DNA of 45,416 nucleotides, taken from an uncultured Ruminococcus sp. (lineage in GTDB: Bacteria; Bacillota; Clostridia; Monoglobales; Monoglobaceae). Position 1 is the first letter of the stretch, and every line of letters starts with the position of its first letter. The translations under genes and the position numbers were made by a program. Below are positions 7,597-25,725 of the stretch, one piece after another. The DNA is taken from positions 1 through 45,416 of the forward strand of contig CADBUP010000076.1 of assembly GCA_902797885.1 (NCBI GenBank). Reading direction: 5' to 3'. The notes under the pieces are model-generated. The model made no database searches, had not been told where the DNA came from, and saw only the letters and a program-made list of their open reading frames with translations.

Positions 7597-7611
7597 AGAA
7601 TGGAGATTTTC

Positions 7612-10600
7612 ATGAAAAGACTAAAACGAATTTTATCCGCCATAACGGCGGCGGCAGTATTGTCGGGAACTATGGCTATAGTACCGATGTCAGCCTTGGC
7701 GGCGGGCGTATCCACAAGGCTTCAAACATTGTTTGATGAAGATTATCAGGCAAAAACGCCGGAGATGATTACTCCCGATTCGGCAAATGAAAGCGGTTTT
7801 GACAAGAACGGAGCCAGCGCATGGGAATGGCAGATACAGCATTTTGAAAAAGGTACGCAATTCGGATTTCCGGAGAGTGCGGGGAATGTTTATCGCGCTC
7901 GATATAACAACCCTGACTACCCGGGCTCGATGCTTTCGGGAAAAGAATTTGTGTTTTACGGTACACAATTCAGAAATCATAATAACTGGAATCTTTTCAG
8001 CAGAAGCATAGATGAATACAAGGAAACGGCGTCTCTGACAATAACCGTAAAGGTTCCGAAAGAGAGTGAGAGCTATTACGATGATTTATATGTATACCTT
8101 AAGAGTTATCCTAATGCAACACATACATTTTCGGCTGTTAAGATTGATAAATATTACTTCCGTGATGAGATAGGGACAATAAAAACGATAAGCATACCGA
8201 TAAGTAAGTTTATAAGCAATGATGAGGATGTATATAAGATAAACGGCGGTTTTGATCCGGCGGCGCTTTCGGGTGCGGGACTTATGCTTGTAAAGCCTCA
8301 GAGCACAGAAATGGGATATTTATTCTATGATAACCTGTATATTTGTAATGTATTGGCGCCGACAGGGCTGACAGTAGCAGACGTATCGGAAAATTCCGTA
8401 TTGCTTTCATGGCAGGCGTCGGATAGTGATATCTCAGGCTATGCAATATACAGAGATGGTGAAAAGATAGGCTATACGGATGCCGATACGCTTGAATACC
8501 GGGATGAAAATCTTGAACAAATGACAAACTATAAATATACCGTTCGTGCTGTAGACAAATATGGTGCAGAATCAAACGATACAGATTCCGTTAGTTTCTT
8601 TAACTCACCGATAGGGCGTCCCGAGGGCTTTAATGCCATATCATCCTTTGATGATGAACTTCAGATAAAGCTTTCATGGAAAGCGCCGAATTTTGGCTCT
8701 GCAGACCGTTTCAATATCTATCGAAATGATAAGCTTTTGACATCTGTATCGGGAAGCACATATGAATATACCGATGCCGAAGGTCTTGTTGAGAACAATG
8801 ATTATACGTATTATGTAAAGGCCCAAACAGCCGACGGAACGGAATCAGAGGGGTCTAATGTCATTACTCTTACGGCTACACATATTAAAAAGCCGACAAA
8901 TTTTAAAGCGGAGATGTTTTCAAGTGAAAGACAGGTCAAATTGTCGTGGGATACTGTAGATAATGCAGAGGGATATATAGTAGAGTGTAATGGCGAGACT
9001 CTCGCAAAAGTAACCGGAAATATCGGAAGCTATATTCATGAGAATATAGCGTATTCGGAGCTTTACGTTTACGTAGTAAAATCATATAACAAAAATGGAG
9101 TTGAGTCGCTCCCTACGGATGAAATATATGTAACTGTGGATAATCCGGAAGTATCACAAAAAGGCATTACGATTTTTGACGATTCTGTGGGCGAGGGATT
9201 TAACCCTTCGGAAATCGAATCGAAAAGTGGTACTGTAAAGGGAAAGTACGCTACAGTTAAGGGCGATGCGCCGAAAGGGGAAAAATCCTTTGACGTTTCG
9301 TTTACCACGGGCACATCGCTTTTGCACGGAGTGTCATTCGAAGTAACGAGCGCCGGCGGAGCGATTGATTTATCATCGATGTATAAAGGCAGAGGAATAC
9401 TTTCGATGTATGTCAAAGCCGATAAGGACTCTGTTGCGAAGGACATTAAAATAGGCTTACAATACACAAGCGATGCAATACTCGGCAGTAAATATACGGT
9501 TATAACATCCGTACCGCTTGCCAACTATATGAAGACATACGGTTCGTGGACATATATTGAAATTCCCGTTTCGGATTTCCCGGCGAAGGGAAAGTATTAT
9601 CATGATGCGGCAGAGTTATATACAGACTTCAAATTCGATAAGGTAACGGGAGTGGATTTTATACTTGAAGACATAAGCACACAGCCGATAAACACGGTCA
9701 GATTTGATGAGGTTATGTTATCGGAATATAGTGCGGCGGAGATAACGGGTATAACAACGAATGACGGAACAGCTCTTGACGCAAGTGCCGAGAATACAAT
9801 TGCTGCGGCAACAAAAGAATTGAATTTTACCTTTGCATATAAGCTTAATCCGGAAACGGTAAAAGGAATAACTCTTGTTGAAAAAGGCACAGATGAAAAC
9901 GAAGACGCTGAAATACCGGTTATAGCGGAATATGACGGTGACAAGACCGTGAAGGTTAGGCTGGCATCGCCGCTCAAAAAAAATACAAGGTATGTACTTG
10001 ATTTTAAAGATGTGTATACCGCCAACGGCGCGAAGCTTAATTCACAGGTAAAGCTTGTAACGTCATCAGATGATGCTGTGACTGATGAATATGCCGAGGA
10101 TGTATTTAATGTAAAAACAGGTTCTGTACAGGCACAGAGCGGAAACAGTGCAAATGTGGATATGACGCTTACGGGCAATGCTGAAAAAGCATATGTAACA
10201 GGCGGTACAATATCGCTTGAATACCCTAAAACGCTGCTTTCCGTTTCAGAGAAGGATATAGTGCTTTCACAGCCGCTTGAAAAGGCAGGCGTAAAAGCAG
10301 ACGTATCTTCGGGCAAGATAACTTTTGATTTAAGCAAAACAAACAAGCCCGTATTAATAGGCTCGCTGTTTGCATCAATCAAATTCAAGGCATCGGGCTC
10401 CGGTTCGGGCAATATGGAAACCAAGGGTGAGGTCAAGGTCCTTTCGGGCAGCGGTGAAAAGACAGTATCTGTTAGGAGCGAAAAAGCGTCTGTTACAATA
10501 GAAGCATCAAGCAGAGGAAATGTATCTTCGGGGGGCGGCGGCTCATCAACTGTCGGCGGCAGGGAAGACGGCAAAGGCTTAAAACCTTCGACTCCGCCGG

Positions 10601-13600
10601 CTCAGGTAACCAATCCGTCAAACACAGATAAATACCTTGCCGATTCTTCGGAGGTAGGCTGGGCAAAAACAGCTATAAACTATCTGACAGAGCATGGTTA
10701 TATAAACGGATATGAGGATCATACATTCCGTCCGAATAACAATGTAACAAGAGAAGAGTTTACGTCAATGCTTATAAGAGCGTTGGGATTTGAGGAAAAA
10801 GACAGCGATAAAGAGTTTAGTGATGTCAGCAAGGATGCTTGGTATTATAAAACGGTTAAAATAGCGGCGGCATTGGGCATAGCTACAGGCTATGACGGTG
10901 TATTCGGAGTGAACGAAACAATAACGCGCCAGGATATGTGTACAATGCTGTATCGCGCGGCAAAGCTTGCCGATAAAGTAATCCCGGATAATTACGGCGG
11001 TGCGGCGTTTGCCGACGCCGACAAAATTGCTGAATACGCAAAGGAGAGCATAACGGCATTGCAGCGCGGAGGTATCGTAAACGGTGTTGAAGACAATTAT
11101 TTTGATCCAACGGGAATGGTAACAAGAGCTATGGCGGCAAAGGTTCTCTATGGTCTTTTAACGGTTCAGCCGAAAGCGGATGAGTCTAAGACAGCGAACG
11201 ACGCGGAAACTAACCGAAGCGCCGGAACAGTAAAGAGAAATGAATCCGCGGAAAGGATGAAAGCATTTGGTTTAATCACAGGTGCGGATGTATCGGCAGA
11301 GGCGGGCGAGAACGTAACCGGTTCGGAATTTGTAAAGTGGCTTATGAATATTACGGGTTTAAACAATGTTTACGGAGGTGATAAAGCTGTTGAGGTTGCA
11401 CGTGAACTCGGATATATTTCGGACGGTGATGAGTTTACCGCTGACGGCGCATTGAAATATAATACTGCTGTAAAATTGGTTATGGAGGCGCTCGGTTACA
11501 GAGTAATGGCACAGTATAAAGGCGGATACCCCGCCGGATATATTGCGGCGGCCAAATCTGCGAATGTGTTAAGAAATACAGCCCCGGAAAAGGACGGAAC
11601 AATTTCAAGAAGCAATGCAATAAAAATATTGGATAACGCTTTGGACGCCAATATTATGGAAAGCTCGGAAAACGGAAACGGCGCTGACAATGCGGAAATC
11701 AAGTTTGACACAAATGTCTTAAACAATTATCTTAAAGTAGATAAATACAGAGGTAAGATAGAATCGGCGGACCGCAGTAAAAAGAATGTAACATTTACGG
11801 CGGATAAAAAAACATATACGTTTGATGTTGCTGACAATATCAACATAAACAGCGTTATAGCCGATGACGCGGATATATATGTAAAGGATGATGTGATAGT
11901 ATATATTCAGTACAGAGGTACCATACAGGTAATGTATGACTTTATCGAGGAGGTAAACGGTAATTCCGATTCGGGTAAAGAATATACAACAAGCGGTATT
12001 AGGAATATATATCTCACCAATGCGGAAAAATCATACAATGCGGACAGAGGGTTAACCGCATACTATAAAGATAAGAATATGGAAGATGCTTCTGCGCCGC
12101 TTGCAACCAGTTTTGCACAGATAACCGTTAAGGATGGCAAGGTGATTGAAATACAGGCCTATCCTCTTCATGAGGGCGGTATTCTTTATCATGCGTCACT
12201 TGATATGATTAAGTACAAGAATGGCTCAAAGATGAGTAATACAATATCCGGACTTGCTGATATTGACGACTTGCTGATATATGTTGACGGAATTCCGGTT
12301 GACGGCGTAGAGATGCTTGCTCCGGACATGGTGTTTGACTATTACCTAAGTGATGATGAGGAAAAGTTTGTAATAGCTGCGTCCTCGAGAACAGCGTCGG
12401 CAACCATCAGCAGTTACGGAAAGTCCTCTGTAACAGCCGGCGGAAAAGAGTATGATACAAGTACAGAATACGGCTGTTATGCATATGACAATAAATCAAA
12501 GCGCTTTAAAAAGTGTAACGGAAGCTCCGGAATTAAAGACTATGCAGGGAAAAAGGCAAAGCTTTTTATAGATGACAGAAAGCAGCTCAGATATATTCTT
12601 GCTACAGAAACCGCAATGAACGATAATTCATTCTTGGGCGTAATCACAAATGCAACATATAATAATCTTTTTGGCGAGCTGTCTGATGTACAGATGGAAA
12701 TATACAACGTATCGGAGGGGACAGGAAAAAAGCAGTATGAGGTTGCGGATAGCATTAAGAATTCGCCCGTATCTATTGACTATGCGGTAAGCGTTGCAAA
12801 AAATATCGAAGGAAAAGGATTCTTTAAATTTACCCTTAATTCGGAAGGCAGGATTACAAAGATTGAAACACCGAAGTATTGGGGCAATGAGTTTACATAT
12901 TCAAAGGAAATAACTACAAAAACACCATATATAATCGGTCAGATAATGGTTAAATATGCAAATCTGTTTGCTGTGTGCAATGTTGACGGCGAATTTACCG
13001 TTACGCCTCTTGACTGGGAAACCGATCTCCGACAGACAAACTTCAGCGGCGGAGTAACGGTAATAAGTGACTATGACGCCGCGAACAACCCTATACCGGA
13101 GTATGTTATGTTTGCAAAGGGTTCAGAGAATCTCCAGTCGAACAACAGAACGGAGTGGATTACAGATATATCCTATCTTCCGGATGACAAGGCAGAATTG
13201 ACAATGTGGAATATGTGGGGTGAGAGAAAATTCATTTTGGATGCGGAAACCGCGGGGCAGTATAGTACACCGAGCCTTGTTGAGTACACAAGCAGGAAGC
13301 TTCAGGGCGAACAGGCAAAGATTTCAAAGGTTATCTGTTCAGGCAGCTCCGATACATGGAATACTGATACATGGACGGGTATGAATTATGGCTTCTTTTC
13401 GGCAGATAAGATACTTTATAGTGACGATGAAGTGGTTCAGTTCGAGGTTGACGGACAGCCCACAAATGTAATGCACCTTACAGAGTATTTCTATGTTGTA
13501 GAGTATAGCGATGGTAAGAAGCCGACTATTACACGCCAGACAGGACAAATGCCTTTGGGATATATAAGCGACGGTGACAAGATATGGTTCCGTACGGTTA

Positions 13601-13671
13601 AGTACGATGATTATGATATAAATGTTGAGCTGGTTATTTATGAAAAGAACGGGATTGCGCCAAAGGATTGA
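7612..13671 (+). CDS. Giant SLH-anchored surface protein with FnIII, Big_5-like and cohesin-like domains
   Basis: This protein has 2019 residues from ATG 7612; that start follows GGAG 7602-7605, while the upstream ATG 7600 has no ribosome site. A signal peptide ends near SALAA. An N-terminal jelly-roll-like region is followed by three fibronectin III domains (about 247-330, 337-423, 427-511), a second carbohydrate-binding-like region (about 543-706), a Big_5-like Ig domain (709-822), a cohesin-like domain (830-967), a Gly/Ser linker (GGGGSS), three SLH domains (about 1013-1185), a degenerate SLH-like module with GGYPAGY (near 1303), and about 650 beta-rich residues of unknown function. No catalytic motif was recognised. 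SLH domains bind pyruvylated secondary wall polymer, so it should sit on the cell wall. A surface scaffold or substrate-tethering role is inferred. The next hydrolase starts 13 nt after its stop. Confidence 0.9.
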   Translation: MKRLKRILSAITAAAVLSGTMAIVPMSALAAGVSTRLQTLFDEDYQAKTPEMITPDSANESGFDKNGASAWEWQIQHFEKGTQFGFPESAGNVYRARYNNPDYPGSMLSGKEFVFYGTQFRNHNNWNLFSRSIDEYKETASLTITVKVPKESESYYDDLYVYLKSYPNATHTFSAVKIDKYYFRDEIGTIKTISIPISKFISNDEDVYKINGGFDPAALSGAGLMLVKPQSTEMGYLFYDNLYICNVLAPTGLTVADVSENSVLLSWQASDSDISGYAIYRDGEKIGYTDADTLEYRDENLEQMTNYKYTVRAVDKYGAESNDTDSVSFFNSPIGRPEGFNAISSFDDELQIKLSWKAPNFGSADRFNIYRNDKLLTSVSGSTYEYTDAEGLVENNDYTYYVKAQTADGTESEGSNVITLTATHIKKPTNFKAEMFSSERQVKLSWDTVDNAEGYIVECNGETLAKVTGNIGSYIHENIAYSELYVYVVKSYNKNGVESLPTDEIYVTVDNPEVSQKGITIFDDSVGEGFNPSEIESKSGTVKGKYATVKGDAPKGEKSFDVSFTTGTSLLHGVSFEVTSAGGAIDLSSMYKGRGILSMYVKADKDSVAKDIKIGLQYTSDAILGSKYTVITSVPLANYMKTYGSWTYIEIPVSDFPAKGKYYHDAAELYTDFKFDKVTGVDFILEDISTQPINTVRFDEVMLSEYSAAEITGITTNDGTALDASAENTIAAATKELNFTFAYKLNPETVKGITLVEKGTDENEDAEIPVIAEYDGDKTVKVRLASPLKKNTRYVLDFKDVYTANGAKLNSQVKLVTSSDDAVTDEYAEDVFNVKTGSVQAQSGNSANVDMTLTGNAEKAYVTGGTISLEYPKTLLSVSEKDIVLSQPLEKAGVKADVSSGKITFDLSKTNKPVLIGSLFASIKFKASGSGSGNMETKGEVKVLSGSGEKTVSVRSEKASVTIEASSRGNVSSGGGGSSTVGGREDGKGLKPSTPPAQVTNPSNTDKYLADSSEVGWAKTAINYLTEHGYINGYEDHTFRPNNNVTREEFTSMLIRALGFEEKDSDKEFSDVSKDAWYYKTVKIAAALGIATGYDGVFGVNETITRQDMCTMLYRAAKLADKVIPDNYGGAAFADADKIAEYAKESITALQRGGIVNGVEDNYFDPTGMVTRAMAAKVLYGLLTVQPKADESKTANDAETNRSAGTVKRNESAERMKAFGLITGADVSAEAGENVTGSEFVKWLMNITGLNNVYGGDKAVEVARELGYISDGDEFTADGALKYNTAVKLVMEALGYRVMAQYKGGYPAGYIAAAKSANVLRNTAPEKDGTISRSNAIKILDNALDANIMESSENGNGADNAEIKFDTNVLNNYLKVDKYRGKIESADRSKKNVTFTADKKTYTFDVADNININSVIADDADIYVKDDVIVYIQYRGTIQVMYDFIEEVNGNSDSGKEYTTSGIRNIYLTNAEKSYNADRGLTAYYKDKNMEDASAPLATSFAQITVKDGKVIEIQAYPLHEGGILYHASLDMIKYKNGSKMSNTISGLADIDDLLIYVDGIPVDGVEMLAPDMVFDYYLSDDEEKFVIAASSRTASATISSYGKSSVTAGGKEYDTSTEYGCYAYDNKSKRFKKCNGSSGIKDYAGKKAKLFIDDRKQLRYILATETAMNDNSFLGVITNATYNNLFGELSDVQMEIYNVSEGTGKKQYEVADSIKNSPVSIDYAVSVAKNIEGKGFFKFTLNSEGRITKIETPKYWGNEFTYSKEITTKTPYIIGQIMVKYANLFAVCNVDGEFTVTPLDWETDLRQTNFSGGVTVISDYDAANNPIPEYVMFAKGSENLQSNNRTEWITDISYLPDDKAELTMWNMWGERKFILDAETAGQYSTPSLVEYTSRKLQGEQAKISKVICSGSSDTWNTDTWTGMNYGFFSADKILYSDDEVVQFEVDGQPTNVMHLTEYFYVVEYSDGKKPTITRQTGQMPLGYISDGDKIWFRTVKYDDYDINVELVIYEKNGIAPKD

Positions 13672-13684
13672 GAGGAGGAACAGC

Positions 13685-16600
13685 ATGAAAAAAAGAATAA
13701 CGACTTTTACGATTATATTAAGTATTATTGTGAGCCTAATCTCAATTCCGACATCGGTTCGGGCGAAATTAAAGGAAGTTCCCGAGAAAGAATATGCGGA
13801 TATGCCTCAGGCATTCAAACAGCTTGACCTTACCGCTGTCGCGAACAGAGGCTTTGCCGACGATGTGGCGGGCGACGGTAAGGGCGGCTGGACGGATCAG
13901 GGTTCGTCAAATGATTTAAGCCGCTTTGACTTAAGGGGTCTTTGTAATCTTAGGGGCGTTGATTTTAACATAATTGACCCCGATAAAAACGGCGGAAATT
14001 CGTGTGTTGTTCTAAGAGGTCAGAACGATATGAGCGTTCCGACCTCTGCGGAAATGATAGTTGACGATAAAATTGCGGGTGTGTATTTTCTGCACGCCTC
14101 GGCATACGTCCAAAAAGAGGTAGGCAAATACGTTTTCGTGTATGATGACGGAACAAAAGAAGAAGTGCCCATACGCGGCGACAAAGACGTATTTAACTGG
14201 TGGGGAAGCGCCCAGGGCGACTATACGGTAACGGCGTGGACGGGCTCAAACGCGATGACATCAGCGGTATCGCTGTATATGTTCTGCTGTGAAAACCCGA
14301 AGCCGTCGAAGAAGGTCAGTAAGATTATTGCCGAAACAACGGGAAAGGGTTCGTATCTGATGCTTGTTGCGGCAACGACAACGGACGTCGGACCGTATAT
14401 GCCCATACCTACGGATCAAAATCCCGATACAACGAACTGGTATGCGTATGAGCAGCCCGGATACGGTGCAACAATCGGAACAGCGCTTGATGCCTCATAT
14501 CTTCTTGATGCGCCGGCGGGAAAACACGGCTATATCAGTAAGAACGGAGAAAAAATGTATTTTGAGGACGGAGCCGAAGCGCGGTTCTGGGCGGTGAATG
14601 TGAGCGGTGACGGTATTTTCGATACATCAAGGACAGGGCTGGAAAACCTCGCGGCAAGAATTGCGGCATTGGGATACAACTGTGTGCGACTGCATCATTT
14701 AGACGCATATTTTAACGCTCCGACAAACATATTCGGCGGCCACGGATATGGTGGTAACAGAAAAGAAGTCAAGCTTGACTCTTGGCGAATGGATAAACTG
14801 TGTTATTTTATGAATGAGTTAAAAAAGCGCGGTATCTATTGGATGTTAGACCAGACTGTCAGCCGATATGAAATGGAAGAGGATAACTTTGACCCGAACT
14901 ATAAAAGTGATATGGGTGTGAAAAGGGTTGCTTATTTTGATGCTCAAGCTCAAGAAAATCGTATGAGATATTCCGAGATGCTTATGACGTGGAAGAATCA
15001 GTATACGGGAATGACGATAGGTGAGGACCCCTCGCTTGTTTTAATTGACCTTGAAAATGAAAACCAACCGTCTTGGATGTTTTCGTTTGCCGCACAATAT
15101 GATTATTACAAAAGAGAGCTGCGCACGCTTCTTGTTGATTGGCTCCGCAAGGAATACGGAACAGACGAGGCTGTTATTAAAGCTTGGAGTGACAATACGG
15201 GGAAAAAGGCGCTTCTGGACGGCGAGAGCATAGAAAAGGGTTATATGGAAATAGCCGATATCTCGGCCAAAAACTATACCGATGCGAGACGTGATGATTT
15301 GATTCGTTTTGCATTTGATCTGGTTATAGATTACGGCAACAGATATACCGAACGCCTGAGAAATATAGGCGTCAAAGCGCTTATTGTCCCGATGACGAAT
15401 TTTGGTTCGCACGCTCCGACAAATGCTTATGCTCATGCGGTTGCAGGTGATTTCACCGATATACATTCGTATTGGGGAGGTATGTCCGGATCCAGTTTTG
15501 GGACGGGATCATCCGGAGGCGATGTTTGCTCTACAATGGATAAGAATTTCAGATATTTCGGAGGTTTGGCAAACTCAAGAGTGTATGGTATGCCATACAT
15601 AATATCGGAATGGAACATCAGTACGACGGGCGCATTTGCATCGGAGGCTAATATGCTCATGGCGTCATACTCATTGATGCAGAATTGGAATCCGTTCTGT
15701 TTCGCCATGCACACGGATAAATTCCAAATAGATTTTAATTATCCCGAAGAGGTTAAAAAGGTTGAATCGGGACTGGTATATGAGGATAAGAACGTTATGG
15801 CAAATGACCTTGCGGTAGACTGTAACCCGGTGAAAATGGGAACCCTGCCGGCGGCATCGATGCTTTTCCATCGCCGCGATGTCAAAGAAGCCGACAGGGG
15901 ATATTATGACCGCTACGGTGATAACGATTATTATGATGCGGACGCATATTTATTCCCCACAGATGCAGGTTATGCCATGATTGGCAAAACGGGTGCAATG
16001 TATGACGTAAAGAAATATGACGAGAGCAAGCTGGATAACGACGTTCTCTATCTTTCAAAGAAAGCAAAGAAGGACAAAACACCGTTTGTAAGCGTGACGG
16101 GCGAAATGTCGACGGATATTAAAAATCGGATATTCAAGGTTAATACCGAGCGTTCTCAATCGGCAATAGGACATACTTCAGGAACGGTGCAGGAACTTGA
16201 CGATGTTAAGTTTGAAATGGATAATAACTTCTCGTCATGCACACTCACATCGCTGTCAAAGGATGAACCGATATATTCATGCGATAAGCTGCTTCTGACC
16301 GCTGCGGGTGATCATAGAAACAGCGGCGAGGTGCGTTCAAATGATACGGAAAGAATATTAAAAGCAGGACACGCGCCGATACTTGTCGAACAAATAACAG
16401 GTAAGGTAACGCTGAAATCAAAGGATGATTTCGAGGTATATACGCTCTCCTCGAGCGGAAAGCGTGTCGACAGAGCTATGACCCGTAAGGATCAGGACGG
16501 AAACACGGTTATTTATTTGCAGCTTGACGACCATTGTATGAACTATGAAATTGTTCGTACAAAGAAAAACGGTGAATCAAAGCCGAATGAAAAGATTGTA

Positions 16601-17170
16601 TTTCCCCAAAACAAGATTGAGCCGGTATTTATCGATGTGGGCTTTGACCACTGGGCGAACAAGGAAATAACCCGTCTTGCACTGCTTGAAAAAATTGACC
16701 TTAACTGGGGCGGTGAATTTAAGCCGGAGGAAAATCTGACAAAGGGTACTGCCTTGAAATGGATAGCGGTATCTTCGGATTTAACCAATAAAAAGTCAAC
16801 ATCAAATTTTGCCAATATTGGGGAAAACGATCCCGATAAAAAAATCATGGCTCTTGTAAAAACGTATGAATTGGCAAAGGGCGATGAGAACGATAATATA
16901 GACAAAGACGAGCCGATAACCCGTGCGGAACTCATGGCCGCAATGGAAAAGGCAATAAGGGCTACGGGACAGAACAAGTCCGGCATTACGGGAACGGAAA
17001 AGACATCATATTCCGATTGGAATGAAGTGCCGGAGGAAATGAAGAGTTCGGCAGAATTTATGCTTGCACAGAGATATGTGAAGGATTTATGGAAGGGCAG
17101 CATAGAGCCGGAAAAACCGGTAACACGCGCCGAGCTTGCTCACATTCTGTTCGGAATGTTATGGTATTAA
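13685..17170 (+). CDS. SLH-anchored secreted glycoside hydrolase, clan GH-A (GH5-like)
   Basis: This 1161-residue secreted enzyme starts at ATG 13685 after GAGGAGG, just behind the previous stop. It has a signal peptide (to about SVRAK), an N-terminal beta-sandwich domain with YFLHASAY and an NWW-AW pattern (about 35-245), then a TIM-barrel hydrolase beginning LDAPAGKHGY. The clan GH-A acid/base is visible as N458-E459 in LIDLENEN, and the nucleophile as E642 in IISEWN. A C-terminal beta domain (about 800-970) leads into three divergent SLH repeats (about 980-1161). The exact CAZy family and substrate are uncertain; retaining cleavage of a plant polysaccharide is expected for the clan. It is a paralogue of the hydrolase encoded at 19541-22468, which lacks SLH domains. 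Confidence 0.87.
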   Translation: MKKRITTFTIILSIIVSLISIPTSVRAKLKEVPEKEYADMPQAFKQLDLTAVANRGFADDVAGDGKGGWTDQGSSNDLSRFDLRGLCNLRGVDFNIIDPDKNGGNSCVVLRGQNDMSVPTSAEMIVDDKIAGVYFLHASAYVQKEVGKYVFVYDDGTKEEVPIRGDKDVFNWWGSAQGDYTVTAWTGSNAMTSAVSLYMFCCENPKPSKKVSKIIAETTGKGSYLMLVAATTTDVGPYMPIPTDQNPDTTNWYAYEQPGYGATIGTALDASYLLDAPAGKHGYISKNGEKMYFEDGAEARFWAVNVSGDGIFDTSRTGLENLAARIAALGYNCVRLHHLDAYFNAPTNIFGGHGYGGNRKEVKLDSWRMDKLCYFMNELKKRGIYWMLDQTVSRYEMEEDNFDPNYKSDMGVKRVAYFDAQAQENRMRYSEMLMTWKNQYTGMTIGEDPSLVLIDLENENQPSWMFSFAAQYDYYKRELRTLLVDWLRKEYGTDEAVIKAWSDNTGKKALLDGESIEKGYMEIADISAKNYTDARRDDLIRFAFDLVIDYGNRYTERLRNIGVKALIVPMTNFGSHAPTNAYAHAVAGDFTDIHSYWGGMSGSSFGTGSSGGDVCSTMDKNFRYFGGLANSRVYGMPYIISEWNISTTGAFASEANMLMASYSLMQNWNPFCFAMHTDKFQIDFNYPEEVKKVESGLVYEDKNVMANDLAVDCNPVKMGTLPAASMLFHRRDVKEADRGYYDRYGDNDYYDADAYLFPTDAGYAMIGKTGAMYDVKKYDESKLDNDVLYLSKKAKKDKTPFVSVTGEMSTDIKNRIFKVNTERSQSAIGHTSGTVQELDDVKFEMDNNFSSCTLTSLSKDEPIYSCDKLLLTAAGDHRNSGEVRSNDTERILKAGHAPILVEQITGKVTLKSKDDFEVYTLSSSGKRVDRAMTRKDQDGNTVIYLQLDDHCMNYEIVRTKKNGESKPNEKIVFPQNKIEPVFIDVGFDHWANKEITRLALLEKIDLNWGGEFKPEENLTKGTALKWIAVSSDLTNKKSTSNFANIGENDPDKKIMALVKTYELAKGDENDNIDKDEPITRAELMAAMEKAIRATGQNKSGITGTEKTSYSDWNEVPEEMKSSAEFMLAQRYVKDLWKGSIEPEKPVTRAELAHILFGMLWY

Positions 17171-17293: not shown

Positions 17294-19465
17294 ATGCTAA
17301 GTAACAAATTTAGACGCGGCGGTGCAATCATTTCCGCTGCCGCAATTGTGTTAACATCTGCGGCTATGCCGGTATCGGCTAAGAGGGTCGTAACGAAAAC
17401 CAAACCGTATACAGCCACAGTTATTAATGAAAATTTTGACAGCTATGGAATTAACAGCTATGATAACCTTGCATACACCGAAAAGGCTCTTGAAGCTAAT
17501 TCCAACATCAGCTATAAGCATTATGTGGATTGGGATTCCAAGGCAAGAAAAATGGCAATCGAGGCTGACGATACAGAGGGCAAAAACGGCAATATTCTTG
17601 CTTTCGATAACAACTGCGGTATCAAACTTAATTTTGATAATCCGAACGGTTCAACACCGGTAAACGAGGGTGATGTTGTAACAATAAGCTTCAGATACAA
17701 GTTTGCTACCAATAATCAGAAAATAAAGATAAACCTGAATAATAATACTTCGGGAAGGTATATGAAGAAAAGCGGAAAAAGTAATGTAAACGGCAATGCG
17801 CAATGGGGTTCGCAGTCCTGGTCAGACACCAAAAATTCAAGACTTGCGGTTCTTGACCTTGATGCGGGCGATGATAAGGGCGGTAATCATGAATATCCAA
17901 ACATGGCTACATATCATGTGGCTGAATATGATAGGTGGACAGAAGAAACAATCACCAAAGATGAATGGCATACCATGACCATTACAATCAATACCAAAGA
18001 CAGCGCTCAGAACAATACACAGACTATAAAAGTTGCAAGTGACGACGGTTCATATTTCTATGGACTGTATGATGCAAATTATACCGGAGAAGGCGATAAT
18101 AAGTATGATCGTTTTACCGAAATAAGCTCATTCCAGTTAGATACATACGGATGCGGCAACAGAACAGAGGGAGGTACCGATTATTTCAGCATAGATGATG
18201 TTTCGGTAACCGTAAAAGGTACGCGGGAGGTTAAAGAGTATGAGTCGGAATTTGATACAACACTCATAGACGAGGATTTTTCAGACCTTACAGCATTAGG
18301 AAATACAAAAGTTACAGATCACGATAGCCATACAGATTTAACGGGTACAGGACTTAAATATGGTATATATGGCGCCGATGTTTCTATCGGAAACACTTAT
18401 AATGATACGGAAAAAGCGCTGAGTATTACTGCAGATAAGGATAAATGGAGCTGTTTTGCGCTGTATGCGGACTGTGCTGAACAACAGATTGCTCCGGGCG
18501 GAATTTTGAATATTTCATTTGATTATTATCAGACATCTTTAAACAAAATGTGCGTAATGCTTCAGGGTGTCGAAGAGAACGGCGTGGCATATAAGTCTAT
18601 AAAAGCAAGTAATTGGTATGATACGAATTATAATGCGGTTGCTAATTCCGGCGGCTGGCAGATCAATGATACTAATATTGTGACTGCTTCCAAAAAAGAT
18701 ACCAAGGCGAAAATTGCCGTGACGGGGCATGCGAAGGATAATCAATGGCATCCGGCGGAGATGCTTTCACCGGTAGCGGCCAATACAGGCGGCAATACGG
18801 CACAGCGTACTTTTGATGCGGGTAAATGGTATACTGTGGAAATAAGTATCGATACAAAGAATGAAAAATTTGACGGTAAGCAGACCATGTCGCTTAAATA
18901 TAAGGAAAGAGGAACGGATACATATAGCCAGGAATACCTTGGCTATCTTGATACAGATGCTACAACCATCGGAACAGTAGACGCTCTCACAAGCTTTAAA
19001 GGCTTTGACATCGGCATAGAGACATTTAAAGAAGATACAAGCATATATGTTGATAATGTAAAAGCAAGCTTCAGGAAGCCGGGCTATGAATTATGGGGCG
19101 AAGCGTCAGAGGGTCTCACAGATGATCACAAATTTACAGCGGGAAAGAATATGAGTATAAAGGCTATGGCAGACCCGGCTGTGTTTAAGGAAGTAGTAAT
19201 GAGTGACGACGGCACAGGGATAAAGGAAATAAAAGATAAGAATGCAGATATGATGCTTATTGTCGCCCTTTATGATGATAAGGATGTGTTGATTGGAACA
19301 GAGCTTGTCAAAAAGACGCTCAGCACAGCCGAACCATATATCCAAACGGAGGAATTTAGCACGAAAGGCGTCAAAACAATAAGGACATTCCTTTGGGATT
19401 CAGGAGATATAAAGCCGTATTTCTTGTCAGAAACGTTTAAAGCCGCAAGTGAAGCAGATGACTGA
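17294..19465 (+). CDS. Secreted ConA-like (lectin/LamG-like) repeat protein, ends at an in-frame TGA
   Basis: This 723-residue secreted protein starts at ATG 17294 after AAGGAGG. The signal peptide ends near PVSAK. Two related beta-rich domains follow, each opening with an ENFDSY- or DEDFSDL-type strand and resembling concanavalin A-like/LamG lectin folds (about 35-310 and 325-600). A C-terminal beta domain ends IRTFLWDSGDIKPYF, a pattern common at the ends of Clostridial surface proteins. No catalytic residues were recognised; glycan binding is inferred. The stop TGA (19463-19465) is in frame with the following hydrolase ORF, with no other stop between, so the two may be one interrupted gene of about 1724 codons. 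If separate, this is a complete substrate-binding protein. Confidence 0.78.
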   Translation: MLSNKFRRGGAIISAAAIVLTSAAMPVSAKRVVTKTKPYTATVINENFDSYGINSYDNLAYTEKALEANSNISYKHYVDWDSKARKMAIEADDTEGKNGNILAFDNNCGIKLNFDNPNGSTPVNEGDVVTISFRYKFATNNQKIKINLNNNTSGRYMKKSGKSNVNGNAQWGSQSWSDTKNSRLAVLDLDAGDDKGGNHEYPNMATYHVAEYDRWTEETITKDEWHTMTITINTKDSAQNNTQTIKVASDDGSYFYGLYDANYTGEGDNKYDRFTEISSFQLDTYGCGNRTEGGTDYFSIDDVSVTVKGTREVKEYESEFDTTLIDEDFSDLTALGNTKVTDHDSHTDLTGTGLKYGIYGADVSIGNTYNDTEKALSITADKDKWSCFALYADCAEQQIAPGGILNISFDYYQTSLNKMCVMLQGVEENGVAYKSIKASNWYDTNYNAVANSGGWQINDTNIVTASKKDTKAKIAVTGHAKDNQWHPAEMLSPVAANTGGNTAQRTFDAGKWYTVEISIDTKNEKFDGKQTMSLKYKERGTDTYSQEYLGYLDTDATTIGTVDALTSFKGFDIGIETFKEDTSIYVDNVKASFRKPGYELWGEASEGLTDDHKFTAGKNMSIKAMADPAVFKEVVMSDDGTGIKEIKDKNADMMLIVALYDDKDVLIGTELVKKTLSTAEPYIQTEEFSTKGVKTIRTFLWDSGDIKPYFLSETFKAASEADD

Positions 19466-19540
19466 AGGGCAGTCGAAAGCATCGGCTGCGCTTCAGCGGC
19501 CGGTGTTTTCGGAAGAACTTCCGATGATATTGTTACGGCA

Positions 19541-22468
19541 ATGACGGGTGAAACCGAAAACGGACAGGATTTTATATCGCAATATGTGCATCCTGCGGAG
19601 CGGACGGAGGGCAGCGTGAAGCATCTCTCCTTCAGTACCGCCGTAAGTGATGACGCCTATTTGGAAACGGATTTTCTTGCCGGAGATAATTCGGAAAGAG
19701 TCTTTAACAACCAAATGTTTTCGGTATCCGCAAACGGATATCCGAGATTTTTCGGCAACGGTATATATACAAAGCAGCTTATAAAAAATAAGTGGTATCT
19801 TGTCGATATTATCCTGAACACCGAGACCGAAAAGGCTCAGCTTTATATTGACGGCGAAAAGTTGACGAATGTGGACTTGCCTGATTTTCCGGTAAATGAT
19901 ATAAAGAGTGTGTTAATTGTTAAAAAGGGTTGGGAACCGGCGTATGTGACCGATATATCATTTGTCTCAGAGGACTGTGACCCTACTGTTTCGATAATGA
20001 GCAACAGTCCGTATTTAGCAAATACAATTTCGGATAAAAGCGGAACAATAGACGTTTATGATAAGGAAGACAGCGCGAGATTTGTTTCAAAGCTGAGAAT
20101 CTGCGGCGCGTCCGACGCAGTTCTCTTAAGCGAAAACGGAACCGAAACGAGTGATATGTCAGAAAATAAATATCTGAGAGTTACCACGGATGAGGGCAGG
20201 AAGCTGTATTACATAATGAAAAAGGGAAACGACAGCTACCTCTCATCTCTGGCGGATATAAATGTTTCCGACAGCGTAAACCGTGACACGGAAGGCTTTT
20301 ATGTGTATAAACAGCCGGAGCTTGAAAAGATTAAGGACAGCGCTCTTGATGTCAGCTTCATTCTTGACGCTCCTGCCGGAAAACGCGGCTTTATAAAGCG
20401 TGTGGGGGATAGATTTATACTAAGCGGTACGGAAGAAGAGATTAAGTTCTGGGGGACAAACCTTTCGGATAAGGATTTATTCCTCAGTCATACGGACGCG
20501 GAAAAAATTGCGGACAGGATTGCACAGATGGGCTTTAACATTGTCAGAATTCATAAGTTTGATACAGCTTATCTTGAAAATGTAATTCGTATAAATCCCG
20601 AGACGAACAAGCCGGAGCTTGACCCTGAGCAAATGGATAAATTTTGTTATTTGCTTGCCGAGCTTAAAGAAAGAGGCATATACTGGGATATAAACCTCTA
20701 TTTCGACCGACAAATTTATGACGGGGATGATGTCGACTATCACGATACAACAGCGATGTTCCCGGCAGGCTACTGGAACCAATCTCTTATCGATGTTCAG
20801 AACAGGTTTGCGGAGTGGGTTTTAGACTATACAAATCCGTATACAGGTTTAAGGATAGCTGATGATCCGGCGCTTGCGTTGGTGGATATGGTTAACGAGA
20901 GAACCATCTATGTCGATAAACTGGAAAATATGGGCAGGTATTATGATGAACTTAACGATAAGTTTACCGAATGGCTTAAGAACCGCTACCAAGACAGAGA
21001 AGCTCTGAAAAATGCATGGGAATATACTCCGAATTGGTGGCATGGCACGGGCTTGCAGGATGATGAGGACCCATGGACGGACGGTAAACCGGTAAAGGTG
21101 ATGGACGTTAATAAAGAAGGAACGGTGCTATGCCGAGGACGTGCAACACCCGAGCGCTGTGCGGATACAAACAAGTTCCTTTGCGAGGTGGAATCAAATT
21201 ACTATACACAGCGGAAGGAATATCTTAAAAATACTATAGGCGTCAAATGCCCGATAACGGGCGGTACGGTATTCTCGTCAAATCAGATTGAAACCAACTA
21301 TGCGCTTACCAAGACGGATTTTATAAGCAACCATGCATATTGGGGTAACTGTTCGGGCTATGTTACAGAATCGGGAAGAACCTTTAACGGACTTTCACAG
21401 CTTGAGGACAGTTCACTCGGAATTATCGGTTATACCTCGAAAATGAGAATTTACGGTATGCCTTATACCCTTGATGAGTGGAATCACGGTAATCCGAATG
21501 CCCGCACGGCGGAGGGACCGTTTCTTGCATCGGCGTACAGCAGACTGAATAATTTAAATTTCTTCTCGTTTAATTTTAATGCAAGAGAATATATCGAGGG
21601 AATAAGTCATAATGATGATTACACGTTTGTGAATCCGTACAATCTGTTTCAGTATCCGATTGGCGTGGTTAAAAATCCGGTTGCTGAAGCGGTATACCCG
21701 ACAGCGTCCGTAATGTTCCAAAGGGGCGACGTAGCGGAGTGCGAAACAGGGTATTATGAAAGTATTAAAGAAACGGATATCGGCAAAGCACCTGAGCTTA
21801 AAGAGTCATCATGGGTTACAATCAATATGCTGCCGAATTGGAGCAACGCATTGAGAGGCCTTATAGGAAAGACGGGGAATGTGTATGACATCGACGGCTT
21901 AAACAGCAGTTTGGTAAATGATGAGCGCATAAAAACTGTGGCGGATGAAGCCGCAAACGGTGATATGAAATTCACATCCTTAACGGGAGAGCTTACAACC
22001 GACCTGAAGAACAGGATATTCACGGCCGATACAGACGGAACACAAACCGCTTGCGGATTTATCGGTGGAAGTACAATCTCTCTTAAAAATATCAATGTTA
22101 ATGTGAACAACTCGTATGCCGCTGTTGCCATAACGTCAATAGACAGAGATGATGCGGACATAAGCTCAGCAAAACGCTTGCTTTTAACAATGGCGGGCGA
22201 AAATAAAAACTATGGTCAGGTAGTTGAAGAGGATGCCGAAAAAGGCAAGCGGTTTTCAACAATCAAGATTGGCGGCAGGGCGCCTATTTTAACAGAACAA
22301 ATCACAGGTGAAATCACATTAAAGCTTGATGGGAATTATGCGGTCTATCCTCTGACATCATCGGGGGAGAGAAAATCCCCGATAGAATTAACCAAGGAAA
22401 ATGACGGATTTAAGTTTAATGTAACTCGTGATATGGAAACAATGTATTTTGAAATTATTAAAAATTAA
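19541..22468 (+). CDS. Clan GH-A glycoside hydrolase lacking its own signal peptide (possible 3' half of an interrupted gene)
   Basis: This 975-residue ORF runs from ATG 19541, but the reading frame is open back to 19466, directly behind the TGA of the preceding gene and in the same frame. No ribosome site precedes ATG 19541, and there is no signal peptide. The protein begins within a ConA-like domain (WYLVDIILNTETEKAQLYIDGEKL), then a TIM barrel starting LDAPAGKRGF. The acid/base Glu is in VDMVNER (codon 20897-20899) and the nucleophile Glu in TLDEWN (codon 21476-21478), so the active site looks intact. A C-terminal beta domain shares APIL-EQITG-ITLK with the SLH hydrolase upstream; no SLH domains follow. 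It is either expressed by stop readthrough, an N-terminally truncated gene, or the remnant of a nonsense-mutated 1724-codon enzyme. Confidence 0.7.
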   Translation: MTGETENGQDFISQYVHPAERTEGSVKHLSFSTAVSDDAYLETDFLAGDNSERVFNNQMFSVSANGYPRFFGNGIYTKQLIKNKWYLVDIILNTETEKAQLYIDGEKLTNVDLPDFPVNDIKSVLIVKKGWEPAYVTDISFVSEDCDPTVSIMSNSPYLANTISDKSGTIDVYDKEDSARFVSKLRICGASDAVLLSENGTETSDMSENKYLRVTTDEGRKLYYIMKKGNDSYLSSLADINVSDSVNRDTEGFYVYKQPELEKIKDSALDVSFILDAPAGKRGFIKRVGDRFILSGTEEEIKFWGTNLSDKDLFLSHTDAEKIADRIAQMGFNIVRIHKFDTAYLENVIRINPETNKPELDPEQMDKFCYLLAELKERGIYWDINLYFDRQIYDGDDVDYHDTTAMFPAGYWNQSLIDVQNRFAEWVLDYTNPYTGLRIADDPALALVDMVNERTIYVDKLENMGRYYDELNDKFTEWLKNRYQDREALKNAWEYTPNWWHGTGLQDDEDPWTDGKPVKVMDVNKEGTVLCRGRATPERCADTNKFLCEVESNYYTQRKEYLKNTIGVKCPITGGTVFSSNQIETNYALTKTDFISNHAYWGNCSGYVTESGRTFNGLSQLEDSSLGIIGYTSKMRIYGMPYTLDEWNHGNPNARTAEGPFLASAYSRLNNLNFFSFNFNAREYIEGISHNDDYTFVNPYNLFQYPIGVVKNPVAEAVYPTASVMFQRGDVAECETGYYESIKETDIGKAPELKESSWVTINMLPNWSNALRGLIGKTGNVYDIDGLNSSLVNDERIKTVADEAANGDMKFTSLTGELTTDLKNRIFTADTDGTQTACGFIGGSTISLKNINVNVNNSYAAVAITSIDRDDADISSAKRLLLTMAGENKNYGQVVEEDAEKGKRFSTIKIGGRAPILTEQITGEITLKLDGNYAVYPLTSSGERKSPIELTKENDGFKFNVTRDMETMYFEIIKN

Positions 22469-22513
22469 GTCTCAACCGTAGGGGAAGTCAAAAGACTTCC
22501 CCTACGGTGAGAC
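22469..22513 (+). terminator. Long perfect hairpin directly after the GH-A ORF
   Basis: ACCGTAGGGGAAGTC and its exact complement GACTTCCCCTACGGT form a 15-bp stem around an AAAA loop, extended by GTCTC/GAGAC after one bulged A. It starts on the base after the stop codon (22466-22468). There is no clear U-run, so it may act as a bidirectional terminator, an mRNA 3'-end shield, or a small repeat element. The rest of the gap to 22617 is AT-rich without a clear promoter. Confidence 0.55.
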
Positions 22514-22617
22514 TGACGCTTGCCCGAATTAATCTTGTAATAGTACATATAAAAGTGATTTAGAATAAAGCTTATGAAATTAACGGCAAATGAAGGCAAA
22601 TGAAAAGGAGAAAAGGT

Positions 22618-25600
22618 ATGTATTATCCTAAGTGTAAAGACGAAGAATTGTCAAATGAGCTTTTTAAACAACCGACAAGTGAATATAGGGCTACTCCGTT
22701 TTGGGCGTGGAACTGTAAGCTCGAGCCAAAAGAATTATGCCGCCAGATAGAAGTATTTAAGGAAATGGGATTCGGCGGCTTTTATATGCATTCCCGCGAC
22801 GGACTCGATACGGCATATTTAGGTGATGAATTTATGGAGGCGGTAAAGCGGTGTGCCGATAAAGCCAAGGATGAAAAAATGCTTGCTTGTCTTTATGATG
22901 AGGATAGATATTCATCGGGATTTGCGGGAGGGCTGCTTACCAGAAACAGACGTTATAGTGAACGTCAATTATTATTTACCCGTGAAAAAAGGGAAGGTAA
23001 CAGAGATAGAGAGAATGCGGCTGAAACAGGGGACAGATACCTTGAAGCTGTTTATGATATTATATTTAACGAAAACAAAGAGCTTGAAAGCTTTAAAATT
23101 ATAGATGAGAATGATACCCCGTTGGGCGAAAAATGGTATGCGTATTCGCAGATAGTACCGCCCAGAGCGTGGTTTAACAATGAAACTTATGTTGATACTT
23201 TTTCAAAGGAAGCACTCGATAAATTTATAGAGATTACACACGAAAGATATAAAGATACTGTCGGCGATATGTTCGGGAGTGTCATTCCTACAATATTTAC
23301 TGATGAAATACTTTATTCTCCGATATTTCTGCAGACGAAATCGGGTAGCGGTGATGCTTGCTTGCCATGGAGCATAATAATGGCGGAGAAATTTAAAAAA
23401 GAGTTCGGTTCTGAAATCTACGATATCCTTCCGGAGGCTGTCTGGGAGCTTTCCGGCGGCAGAAAATCCGCTAACAGAATCTTGCTTCATGATTTTTGGC
23501 AAAGACTTTTCAATGCTGCGTTTTTGAAAAATGTCGGGGAATGGTGCAGAAATAACGGAATAATGCTTACAGGGCATATGATGCGTGAAGAAACTCTTGC
23601 AGGTCAGACCAACGGGAACGGTGAGGTTATGCCGGCATACCGTTATATGGATTTACCGGGTATGGATATGTTCGCGAACAGTTATCATTATACTTGCGCA
23701 AAACAGGTACAGTCAATTGTTCATCAGGACGGGAAGGAGGGAATGACTTCAGAACTTTACGGCGTTTCAAACTGGAATTATGATTTCAGAGGTCATAAAA
23801 ATCAGGGTGATTGGCAGGCGGCTTTGGGGGTAACAATAAGAGTTCCGCACCTTGCGCCTGTTTCCATGAAAGGCTCCGCAAAAAGAGATTATCCGCAGTT
23901 TTTTTCATATCAATCACCATGGTATGAGCGTTACAGTTATATGGAAAACCACTTTGCTCGGCTTAACACAGCTTTAACAAGGGGCAAGGCGGTTGTAAAG
24001 GTAGGGGTGATTCATCCGATAGAAAGCTGTCATATGAATTACGGCCCGAATGATAAAACGCTGGATCATATAAAGGGGCTTGACGCTGTATTTAAAAATG
24101 TGTGTGAATGGCTGATTGAAGGACAGATTGATTTTGATTATATAAGCGAGTCGCTGTTACCCGATATGGCAGGAAAAGTGTCAGGTTTTTTGGAAGTGGG
24201 ACAAATGAAATACAGCGCCGTTATTGTTGCCGGCTGTGAAACATTACGGCAAACGACTTTAGATATTTTAAAGGAGTTTCACACAAACGGCGGTAAGGTT
24301 GTATGTGCCGGAGCGGTTCCGCAATATTTAGACGGTATAAAATCAAGTGAGCCAAATGAATTCTTTAATGAAACGGTTCGCGTTCAGCTTGATAAGTACA
24401 GTCTTATAAACGTACTCGAAAACGAAAGGCTTATTAAAATCACAGAGTCGGATATGGCATTGAGTAATGACTGCGTTTATCAGATGCGTATTGATAATTC
24501 TTGTTTGTGGCTTTTTATCGCACCGATGAAAAGACTTAACTTAGAACATAAAAATGATGTTGTAGCAAAGCAGAGAACAATAAAGATAAAGGGAAAATAT
24601 ACACCCATTATATATGATACCCTGTCGGGCGAAACAAATATGGCGGATTTTGACGTGAAGGACGGTTATACATATGTATATTACACTTTCTACCAATCAA
24701 CAAGCCTGCTTTTAAGGCTTAATCCGTTTACAAGAGTATCCCACAGAGCCGTGCGGAAAAAGGAAGAATTAATCAAAAAAGAATTTATATTCGGAAAGGT
24801 CAGCTGTAAACGGACAGAGCCGAATGTTGTTCTTTTGGATGCCGGTGAATACAGAATTAACGGTGGAGAATATTGTGCTTATGAAAATATAAGAAAGATA
24901 TACGAAATTGTTTTAAAGGAGCTTGGCTACAGTTCTTCATGCGCCGAAGCTGAACCATGGACAAGAGGCGCTTGGAAGAAGCCGCATACGGTGGAATTGA
25001 GATTTGAGTTTTACAGTGAAATTGAATTAAGCGGCGCAAGGCTTGCCTGCGAAAACGGGGAAGAAAGCATTGCAGCGCTCAACGGTACAGTCATAAATAT
25101 GGTCGCAGATGGATATTTCACAGATAAATCCATAAAAACATATCCGTTACCAAACATTAAAGAGGGCAGAAATGTAATTAATGTAACAATTCCGTTCGGC
25201 GAATATTCGGACCTGGAGAATTATTTTATTCTTGGTGAATTTAACGTAAGACTTGAGGGAACGGAAAAAACCATTACAGCGCCGGCGTTTGAATGTGGAT
25301 TCGGTGATGTATCATCACTCGGAATGCCTTTCTATGGCGGGACGCTCAAATATGCTATGGATATAACGGCACCGGAGGATTGCGATGCATATTTAACATT
25401 AAGCTCGTTTGCCGCTCCGTGTGTGGCGGTAATATTAGATAATGAGGATGTGGGAACGATTGCGTTCTCACCATATAAGCTAGAGCTTGACAATCTCAAA
25501 AAAGGAAAGCACAGGCTTGAATTTATTGCATACGGAAATCGCCACAACTCATTCGGGGCATTACATATGGTAACGTTTGAGAAAGTATATATCAATTCAG

Positions 25601-25725
25601 GGAGCTGGAATTTTGAAACGGATGACAGATGTAATTATAAATATGAATATGAACTGCGAAGATTTGGAATTATAGCAAGCCCGAAGATAGAATATGTTAG
25701 AACTTCTCTCAATGGGGCAATCTAA
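22618..25725 (+). CDS. GH106-like (alpha-L-rhamnosidase-type) glycoside hydrolase, cytoplasmic
   Basis: This 1035-residue protein starts at ATG 22618, 7 nt after GGAG (22607-22610); the upstream ATG 22600 lacks such a site. There is no signal peptide, so it should act in the cytoplasm on imported oligosaccharides. The N-terminal barrel shows the GH106-type pattern: PFWAWN, GFGGFYMHSRDGL, CLYDEDRYSSGFAGG (about 25-105), a TIFTDEIL strand (about 225) and TGHMMREETLAGQTNG with MPAYRYMDLPGMD (about 320). A C-terminal beta-sandwich completes it. GH106 members remove L-rhamnose, for example from rhamnogalacturonan side structures; the family is broad, so the exact substrate is uncertain. It ends the first plus-strand cluster; its last bases overlap a minus-strand TnpV-like remnant. 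Confidence 0.78.
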   Translation: MYYPKCKDEELSNELFKQPTSEYRATPFWAWNCKLEPKELCRQIEVFKEMGFGGFYMHSRDGLDTAYLGDEFMEAVKRCADKAKDEKMLACLYDEDRYSSGFAGGLLTRNRRYSERQLLFTREKREGNRDRENAAETGDRYLEAVYDIIFNENKELESFKIIDENDTPLGEKWYAYSQIVPPRAWFNNETYVDTFSKEALDKFIEITHERYKDTVGDMFGSVIPTIFTDEILYSPIFLQTKSGSGDACLPWSIIMAEKFKKEFGSEIYDILPEAVWELSGGRKSANRILLHDFWQRLFNAAFLKNVGEWCRNNGIMLTGHMMREETLAGQTNGNGEVMPAYRYMDLPGMDMFANSYHYTCAKQVQSIVHQDGKEGMTSELYGVSNWNYDFRGHKNQGDWQAALGVTIRVPHLAPVSMKGSAKRDYPQFFSYQSPWYERYSYMENHFARLNTALTRGKAVVKVGVIHPIESCHMNYGPNDKTLDHIKGLDAVFKNVCEWLIEGQIDFDYISESLLPDMAGKVSGFLEVGQMKYSAVIVAGCETLRQTTLDILKEFHTNGGKVVCAGAVPQYLDGIKSSEPNEFFNETVRVQLDKYSLINVLENERLIKITESDMALSNDCVYQMRIDNSCLWLFIAPMKRLNLEHKNDVVAKQRTIKIKGKYTPIIYDTLSGETNMADFDVKDGYTYVYYTFYQSTSLLLRLNPFTRVSHRAVRKKEELIKKEFIFGKVSCKRTEPNVVLLDAGEYRINGGEYCAYENIRKIYEIVLKELGYSSSCAEAEPWTRGAWKKPHTVELRFEFYSEIELSGARLACENGEESIAALNGTVINMVADGYFTDKSIKTYPLPNIKEGRNVINVTIPFGEYSDLENYFILGEFNVRLEGTEKTITAPAFECGFGDVSSLGMPFYGGTLKYAMDITAPEDCDAYLTLSSFAAPCVAVILDNEDVGTIAFSPYKLELDNLKKGKHRLEFIAYGNRHNSFGALHMVTFEKVYINSGSWNFETDDRCNYKYEYELRRFGIIASPKIEYVRTSLNGAI

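Follow-up and report, generated by a model that had tools for sequence, protein, structure and literature searches.

In the window analysed here, a stretch of 45,416 nt corresponding to the whole of contig C76 in the genome of a gut-type Clostridia bacterium (204 contigs, 98% complete), two neighboring reading frames, ORF1 and ORF2, are probably the halves of one secreted modular GH-A gene, interrupted by a recent TGA within a variable linker. The ancestral gene would have spanned 1724 codons, encoding, in this order, a signal peptide, two ConA domains, an Ig domain, a third ConA domain, a second Ig domain and the GH-A domain; the TGA would have arisen after the first Ig domain and before the third ConA domain. 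Ribosomes stopping at the TGA would release a secreted, lectin-like protein of 723 aa, devoid of the catalytic domain, and the enzyme would be lost or reduced to the traces produced by leaky readthrough.

That the two frames belong to one gene is shown by their common register, by a continuous orthologue, by the conservation of the linker and by the absence of other damage in about 1000 downstream codons. The lack of any further decay downstream of the TGA also suggests that the nonsense change is young. A young nonsense allele is the most likely state of the locus, an error in the assembly consensus a less likely one. Annotation pipelines would report two proteins, one of them an apparently cytoplasmic glycosidase, instead of a single stop-interrupted secreted modular enzyme.

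Reading frame and domain organization

ORF1 (17294..19465, plus strand, 723 aa), the 5' portion of the gene, starts with a Shine-Dalgarno (SD) sequence, AAGGAGG, and a signal peptide; the ConA-like domains A (aa ~42-312) and B (~313-594) and the Ig-like domain C (~595-715) follow, and the frame then ends at the TGA (19463..19465, plus strand). ORF2 (19541..22468, plus strand, 975 aa, ending in TAA) contains the remainder of a ConA-like domain D, an Ig-like domain E and the GH-A domain. Translation yields a single frame from 17294 to 22468, in which the TGA is the sole internal stop in 1724-1725 codons, the frame of ORF2 being otherwise open over about 1000 codons. The 25 codons lying in between (19466..19540, plus strand) are free of stops and cover what remains of the linker and the N-terminal end of domain D. 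Translation is thus in agreement with the first-pass annotation, made from the sequence alone, which had placed the TGA and the ORF starting at ATG 19541 in one frame, and the beginning of the downstream part inside a ConA-like domain.

The coding signal of the ORF2 frame extends 5' of ATG 19541 (LLR 7.1 at 19490). The same annotation had described the downstream part as lacking both a signal peptide and a ribosome site: this holds at ATG 19541, where neither an SD sequence nor a signal peptide of its own is found, but not at the in-frame GTG 19616, which is preceded at 4 nt by GGAGGG, a good SD-like sequence lying inside the conserved ConA module. This possible internal start within domain D (19606..19618, plus strand; codons GAG GGC) is probably there by accident.

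The domain names ConA-like and Ig-like were taken from sequence patterns and relatives, no confident Pfam match being found, and AlphaFold, run on the N-terminus of ORF2 with single-sequence input, gave an uninformative model, with a pLDDT of 38. The active site was called intact at first reading, and both catalytic glutamates are indeed present, at codons 20897 (NE motif) and 21476 (DEW motif). At the sequence level, the Glu pair of clan GH-A (the NE motif plus a second E) is conserved, N211-E212 and E405-W406 being invariant in alignment A1. Full-length ORF2 falls under the Pfam gathering scores of both GH42 (20.9 vs 21) and GH5 (16.8 vs 23.5), the trimmed catalytic part just clearing the GH42 cut-off (21.8), and ORF2 matches GH5 mannanases at the profile level (E 3.5e-11).

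A shared frame (1/3) combined with 25 open codons (0.30) is expected by chance in about 10% of cases, so geometry alone is weak evidence. However, an 884-kb sample of the genome contains 22 adjacent coding pairs that share a frame, and only in ORF1/ORF2 is the first possible start as far as 25 codons past the stop; in the others that start comes 0-10 codons past it, usually with an SD sequence. This unique distance, together with the conservation of the linker peptide in an uninterrupted orthologue, takes the pair beyond chance.

Continuous relatives of the interrupted gene

A first profile scan of genome contigs found no close orthologue; a second led to the MAG SUG1612 (G423), which also carries a 72%-identical copy of the rhamnosidase gene of the window. 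On its contig C80, one uninterrupted ORF (L185:2231-6028), 1266 aa or longer, runs off the contig within the GH-A domain. Identity is 51% over 331 aa with ORF1 (58.6% in domain A, 41% in domain C) and 52.9% over 843 aa with the linker plus ORF2, starting from the first linker residue. Since ORF2 and ORF1 are equally similar to the orthologue, there is no sign of a faster decay of ORF2.

All 25 linker codons are matched by sense codons in the orthologue (ESIGCASAAGVFGRTSDD / ETAGCADSSGVYGRTSDD), the stretch 19466..19540 being kept there (GCASAAGVFGRTSDD / GCADSSGVYGRTSDD). The alignment over the TGA is ungapped (SEADD(stop)RAVESIGCASAAGVFGRTSDD vs TKINPTKATETAGCADSSGVYGRTSDD), and spans the end of the Ig domain, the TGA and the next ConA domain, into GRTSDD. 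The TGA itself falls in a variable inter-domain stretch, at a column occupied by a sense codon in the orthologue, and conserved coding sequence is met soon 3' of it. A more distant relative in SUG1612, L066:4046-8200, is likewise a continuous ORF, of 1385 aa and similar module order, and one BLAST alignment to it crosses the TGA position. A continuous orthologue and a conserved linker therefore support the first-pass proposal that a single TGA has broken a secreted enzyme of 1724 codons, and orthologues arranged as two separate complete genes were not seen, L185 and L066 both being continuous.

Only one close orthologue, about 50% identical, was found. None was detected in the genus, in the order or in samples of 391 genomes of the class, which returned distant GH-A relatives only; a profile of the D-E region, run across the class, and a search of the family of SUG1612 gave no further continuous relative.

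The first reading had also considered a deletion fusing two genes; such an event would have removed the promoter, ribosome site and signal peptide of the second. ORF2 does lack a signal peptide, and UBA6363 (L064) carries, downstream of a C-domain ORF, a distinct GH-A gene equipped with an SD sequence and a signal peptide; the L064 genes, however, are without the A/B and D/E modules, and are thus not orthologues, while L185 shares both junction and linker, which align in register over the TGA without a gap. As far as the alignment goes, this comparison shows that ORF1 and ORF2 are one gene, speaks against a deletion-fusion in the lineage, and makes the fusion the least probable of the explanations considered.

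Two features of the relatives fit the nonsense reading less well. Domain B is missing from the orthologue, whose order is A-C-D-E-GH-A, and most proteins related to the Ig-like C domain end soon after it, as ORF1 does. Directly 5' of the continuous orthologue, SUG1612 carries a standalone protein of 671 aa (L185:61-2073) with signal peptide and domains A, B and C, which aligns with ORF1 along most of its length at about 29% identity and ends after C.

The hairpin behind the TGA and the decoding of UGA

A 15-bp hairpin (19475..19510, plus strand, -25.2 kcal/mol), the second strongest in 45 kb, begins 12 nt past the start of the TGA. An alternative hairpin (19462-19496, plus strand, -22.8) overlaps it, and includes the TGA within its 5' arm. 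When the linker was recoded synonymously 40,000 times, a 36-nt hairpin as stable appeared just once; over 89 nt, a fold of equal stability is present in 15 of 39,136 coding windows. Hairpins this strong (-25 kcal/mol) number 4 in 691 kb of coding sequence and 13 near stops; in this genome those of -25 kcal/mol or stronger cluster 8-15 nt past stops. Such a structure right after the TGA is unexpected for a random nonsense mutation. No comparable hairpin is present in the L185 orthologue (-10.6 vs -25.2 kcal/mol), the sequence lacks the clear T-run of a textbook terminator, and it encodes conserved peptide. The strongest hairpin in 45 kb, a perfect one of 15 bp and also without T-run, is located at 22474-22509, 8 nt from the first base of the ORF2 TAA.

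The hairpin at 19475-19510 could be due to chance, be the cause of a sequencing or replication error, mark a 3' end or aid readthrough; of these readings, chance or an error-prone context is ranked first. The linker is not a repeat or a mobile palindrome, having no second copy in the genome and no Rfam family. A template-switch origin of the arm containing the TGA is no more than speculative: 19462-19476 is complementary to 19482-19496 at 13 of 15 positions only, and the second hairpin would be left unaccounted for. A natural terminator of ORF1 followed by a 5'-truncated neighbour, ORF2, looked attractive, since most C-domain relatives end there, but is contradicted by the continuous L185 orthologue.

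It is unlikely, on balance, that the TGA is a consensus error or the allele of a minority strain and that the gene is uninterrupted in the cell. For such an error speak the draft state of the genome, apparently a MAG in 204 contigs, the frame of ORF2, which stays open over 1000 codons, and the 15-bp inverted repeat next to the TGA, since Illumina errors have been reported at repeats of this kind. On the other hand, a consensus seldom contains substitution errors, and the search of 884 kb gave no second gene broken by a single stop.

In this genome TGA serves as an ordinary stop, ending 88 of the 383 coding ORFs of the 884-kb sample. Of 42 tRNA matches, nearly all of them typed, none showed a UCA anticodon, and no tRNA-Sec exceeded the family cut-off. 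The tRNA-Trp (CCA) looks normal, with an anticodon stem of 5 bp as read from its sequence, unlike the UGA-reading form, whose stem is of 4 bp (PMC13092985). With no dedicated tRNA found among these matches, recoding of UGA as selenocysteine or tryptophan was rejected. The stem-loop directly 3' of the UGA does recall selenocysteine and suppressor-tRNA decoding, but no matching tRNA was found, and there is no reason for a selenocysteine in the linker. Taken together, these data make a special decoding system for UGA unlikely, as far as can be read from the genome, and general recoding had been judged unlikely at first reading as well. Ordinary leakage at the UGA may take place.

A functional readthrough, leaky or programmed and aided by the hairpin, would provide the secreted lectin along with a little full-length enzyme. 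The position of the hairpin and the rarity of its stability, the preservation of both linker peptide and active site, and the report that in-frame stops under purifying selection are widespread in bacteria (PMC7918605) speak for it, but stop and hairpin are both absent from the one close orthologue, and the tRNAs described above offer no support. We know of no case of hairpin-aided readthrough in a secreted glycosidase. The two product lengths by readthrough envisaged in the first-pass annotation are thus improbable, no suppressor or unusual tRNA-Trp having been found and the hairpin not being conserved.

A fission of the gene, by which the TGA and the hairpin would constitute the true 3' end of ORF1, and ORF2 would be translated from GTG 19616 as a cytoplasmic enzyme, is a very doubtful reading. 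The hairpin does lie, at +12, within the cluster of strong structures that follow stops, the standalone SUG1612 paralogue does end after C, and GGAGGG precedes the GTG; but the hairpin has no clear U-run and codes for conserved peptide, a start at GTG 19616 would clip domain D and leave no signal peptide, and no promoter is established for ORF2. Still less credence is given to a switch formed by the TGA and the hairpin, in which termination would yield the secreted lectin, maybe along with the end of transcription, and occasional readthrough the full-length enzyme; the lectin of this switch would resemble the standalone A-B-C paralogue of SUG1612.

The locus and its likeness to known systems

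Upstream of ORF1 lies a GH-A paralogue of ORF2 with an SLH module (13622-17170, 33% identity), and downstream an alpha-L-rhamnosidase-like protein (22600-25725). The listed start of the former overlaps the preceding gene, its true start being likely the later methionine of MKKRITTF, about 13685. That preceding gene, at 7600-13671, encodes 2023 aa, with SLH repeats in the middle of the protein (aa ~1015-1187) and a putative junction around aa 1187-1215. Its SUG1612 counterpart (L055) consists of two ORFs, the first ending in SLH repeats, the second provided with its own ribosome site and signal peptide: judged from this comparison, 7600-13671 seems to have arisen by the joining of two neighbouring genes, the reverse of the split of ORF1 and ORF2.

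If the stop is real, a cell-surface polysaccharide-degrading locus has lost, or split off, one of its enzymes. Should readthrough be shown, the hairpin would make this gene a simple one in which to test stop-codon regulation among gut Clostridia.

The nearest solved relatives of ORF2 are GH5 mannanases (e.g. 8gf3), beta-galactosidases matching more weakly. The NE and DEW motifs and the GH5 mannanase profile match liken it to modular secreted GH-A CAZymes. It differs in carrying ConA and Ig modules ahead of the catalytic domain, and in full-length scores that stay below the Pfam cut-offs of both GH5 and GH42.

Bacterial genes that are intact but for in-frame stops form a recognised, debated class (Belinky et al. 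2021, PMC7918605). The gene described here differs from these nonsense-interrupted genes in that a single copy is seen and a strong hairpin follows the stop, but resembles them, and apparent pseudogenes, in featuring one in-frame stop where its relatives are uninterrupted.
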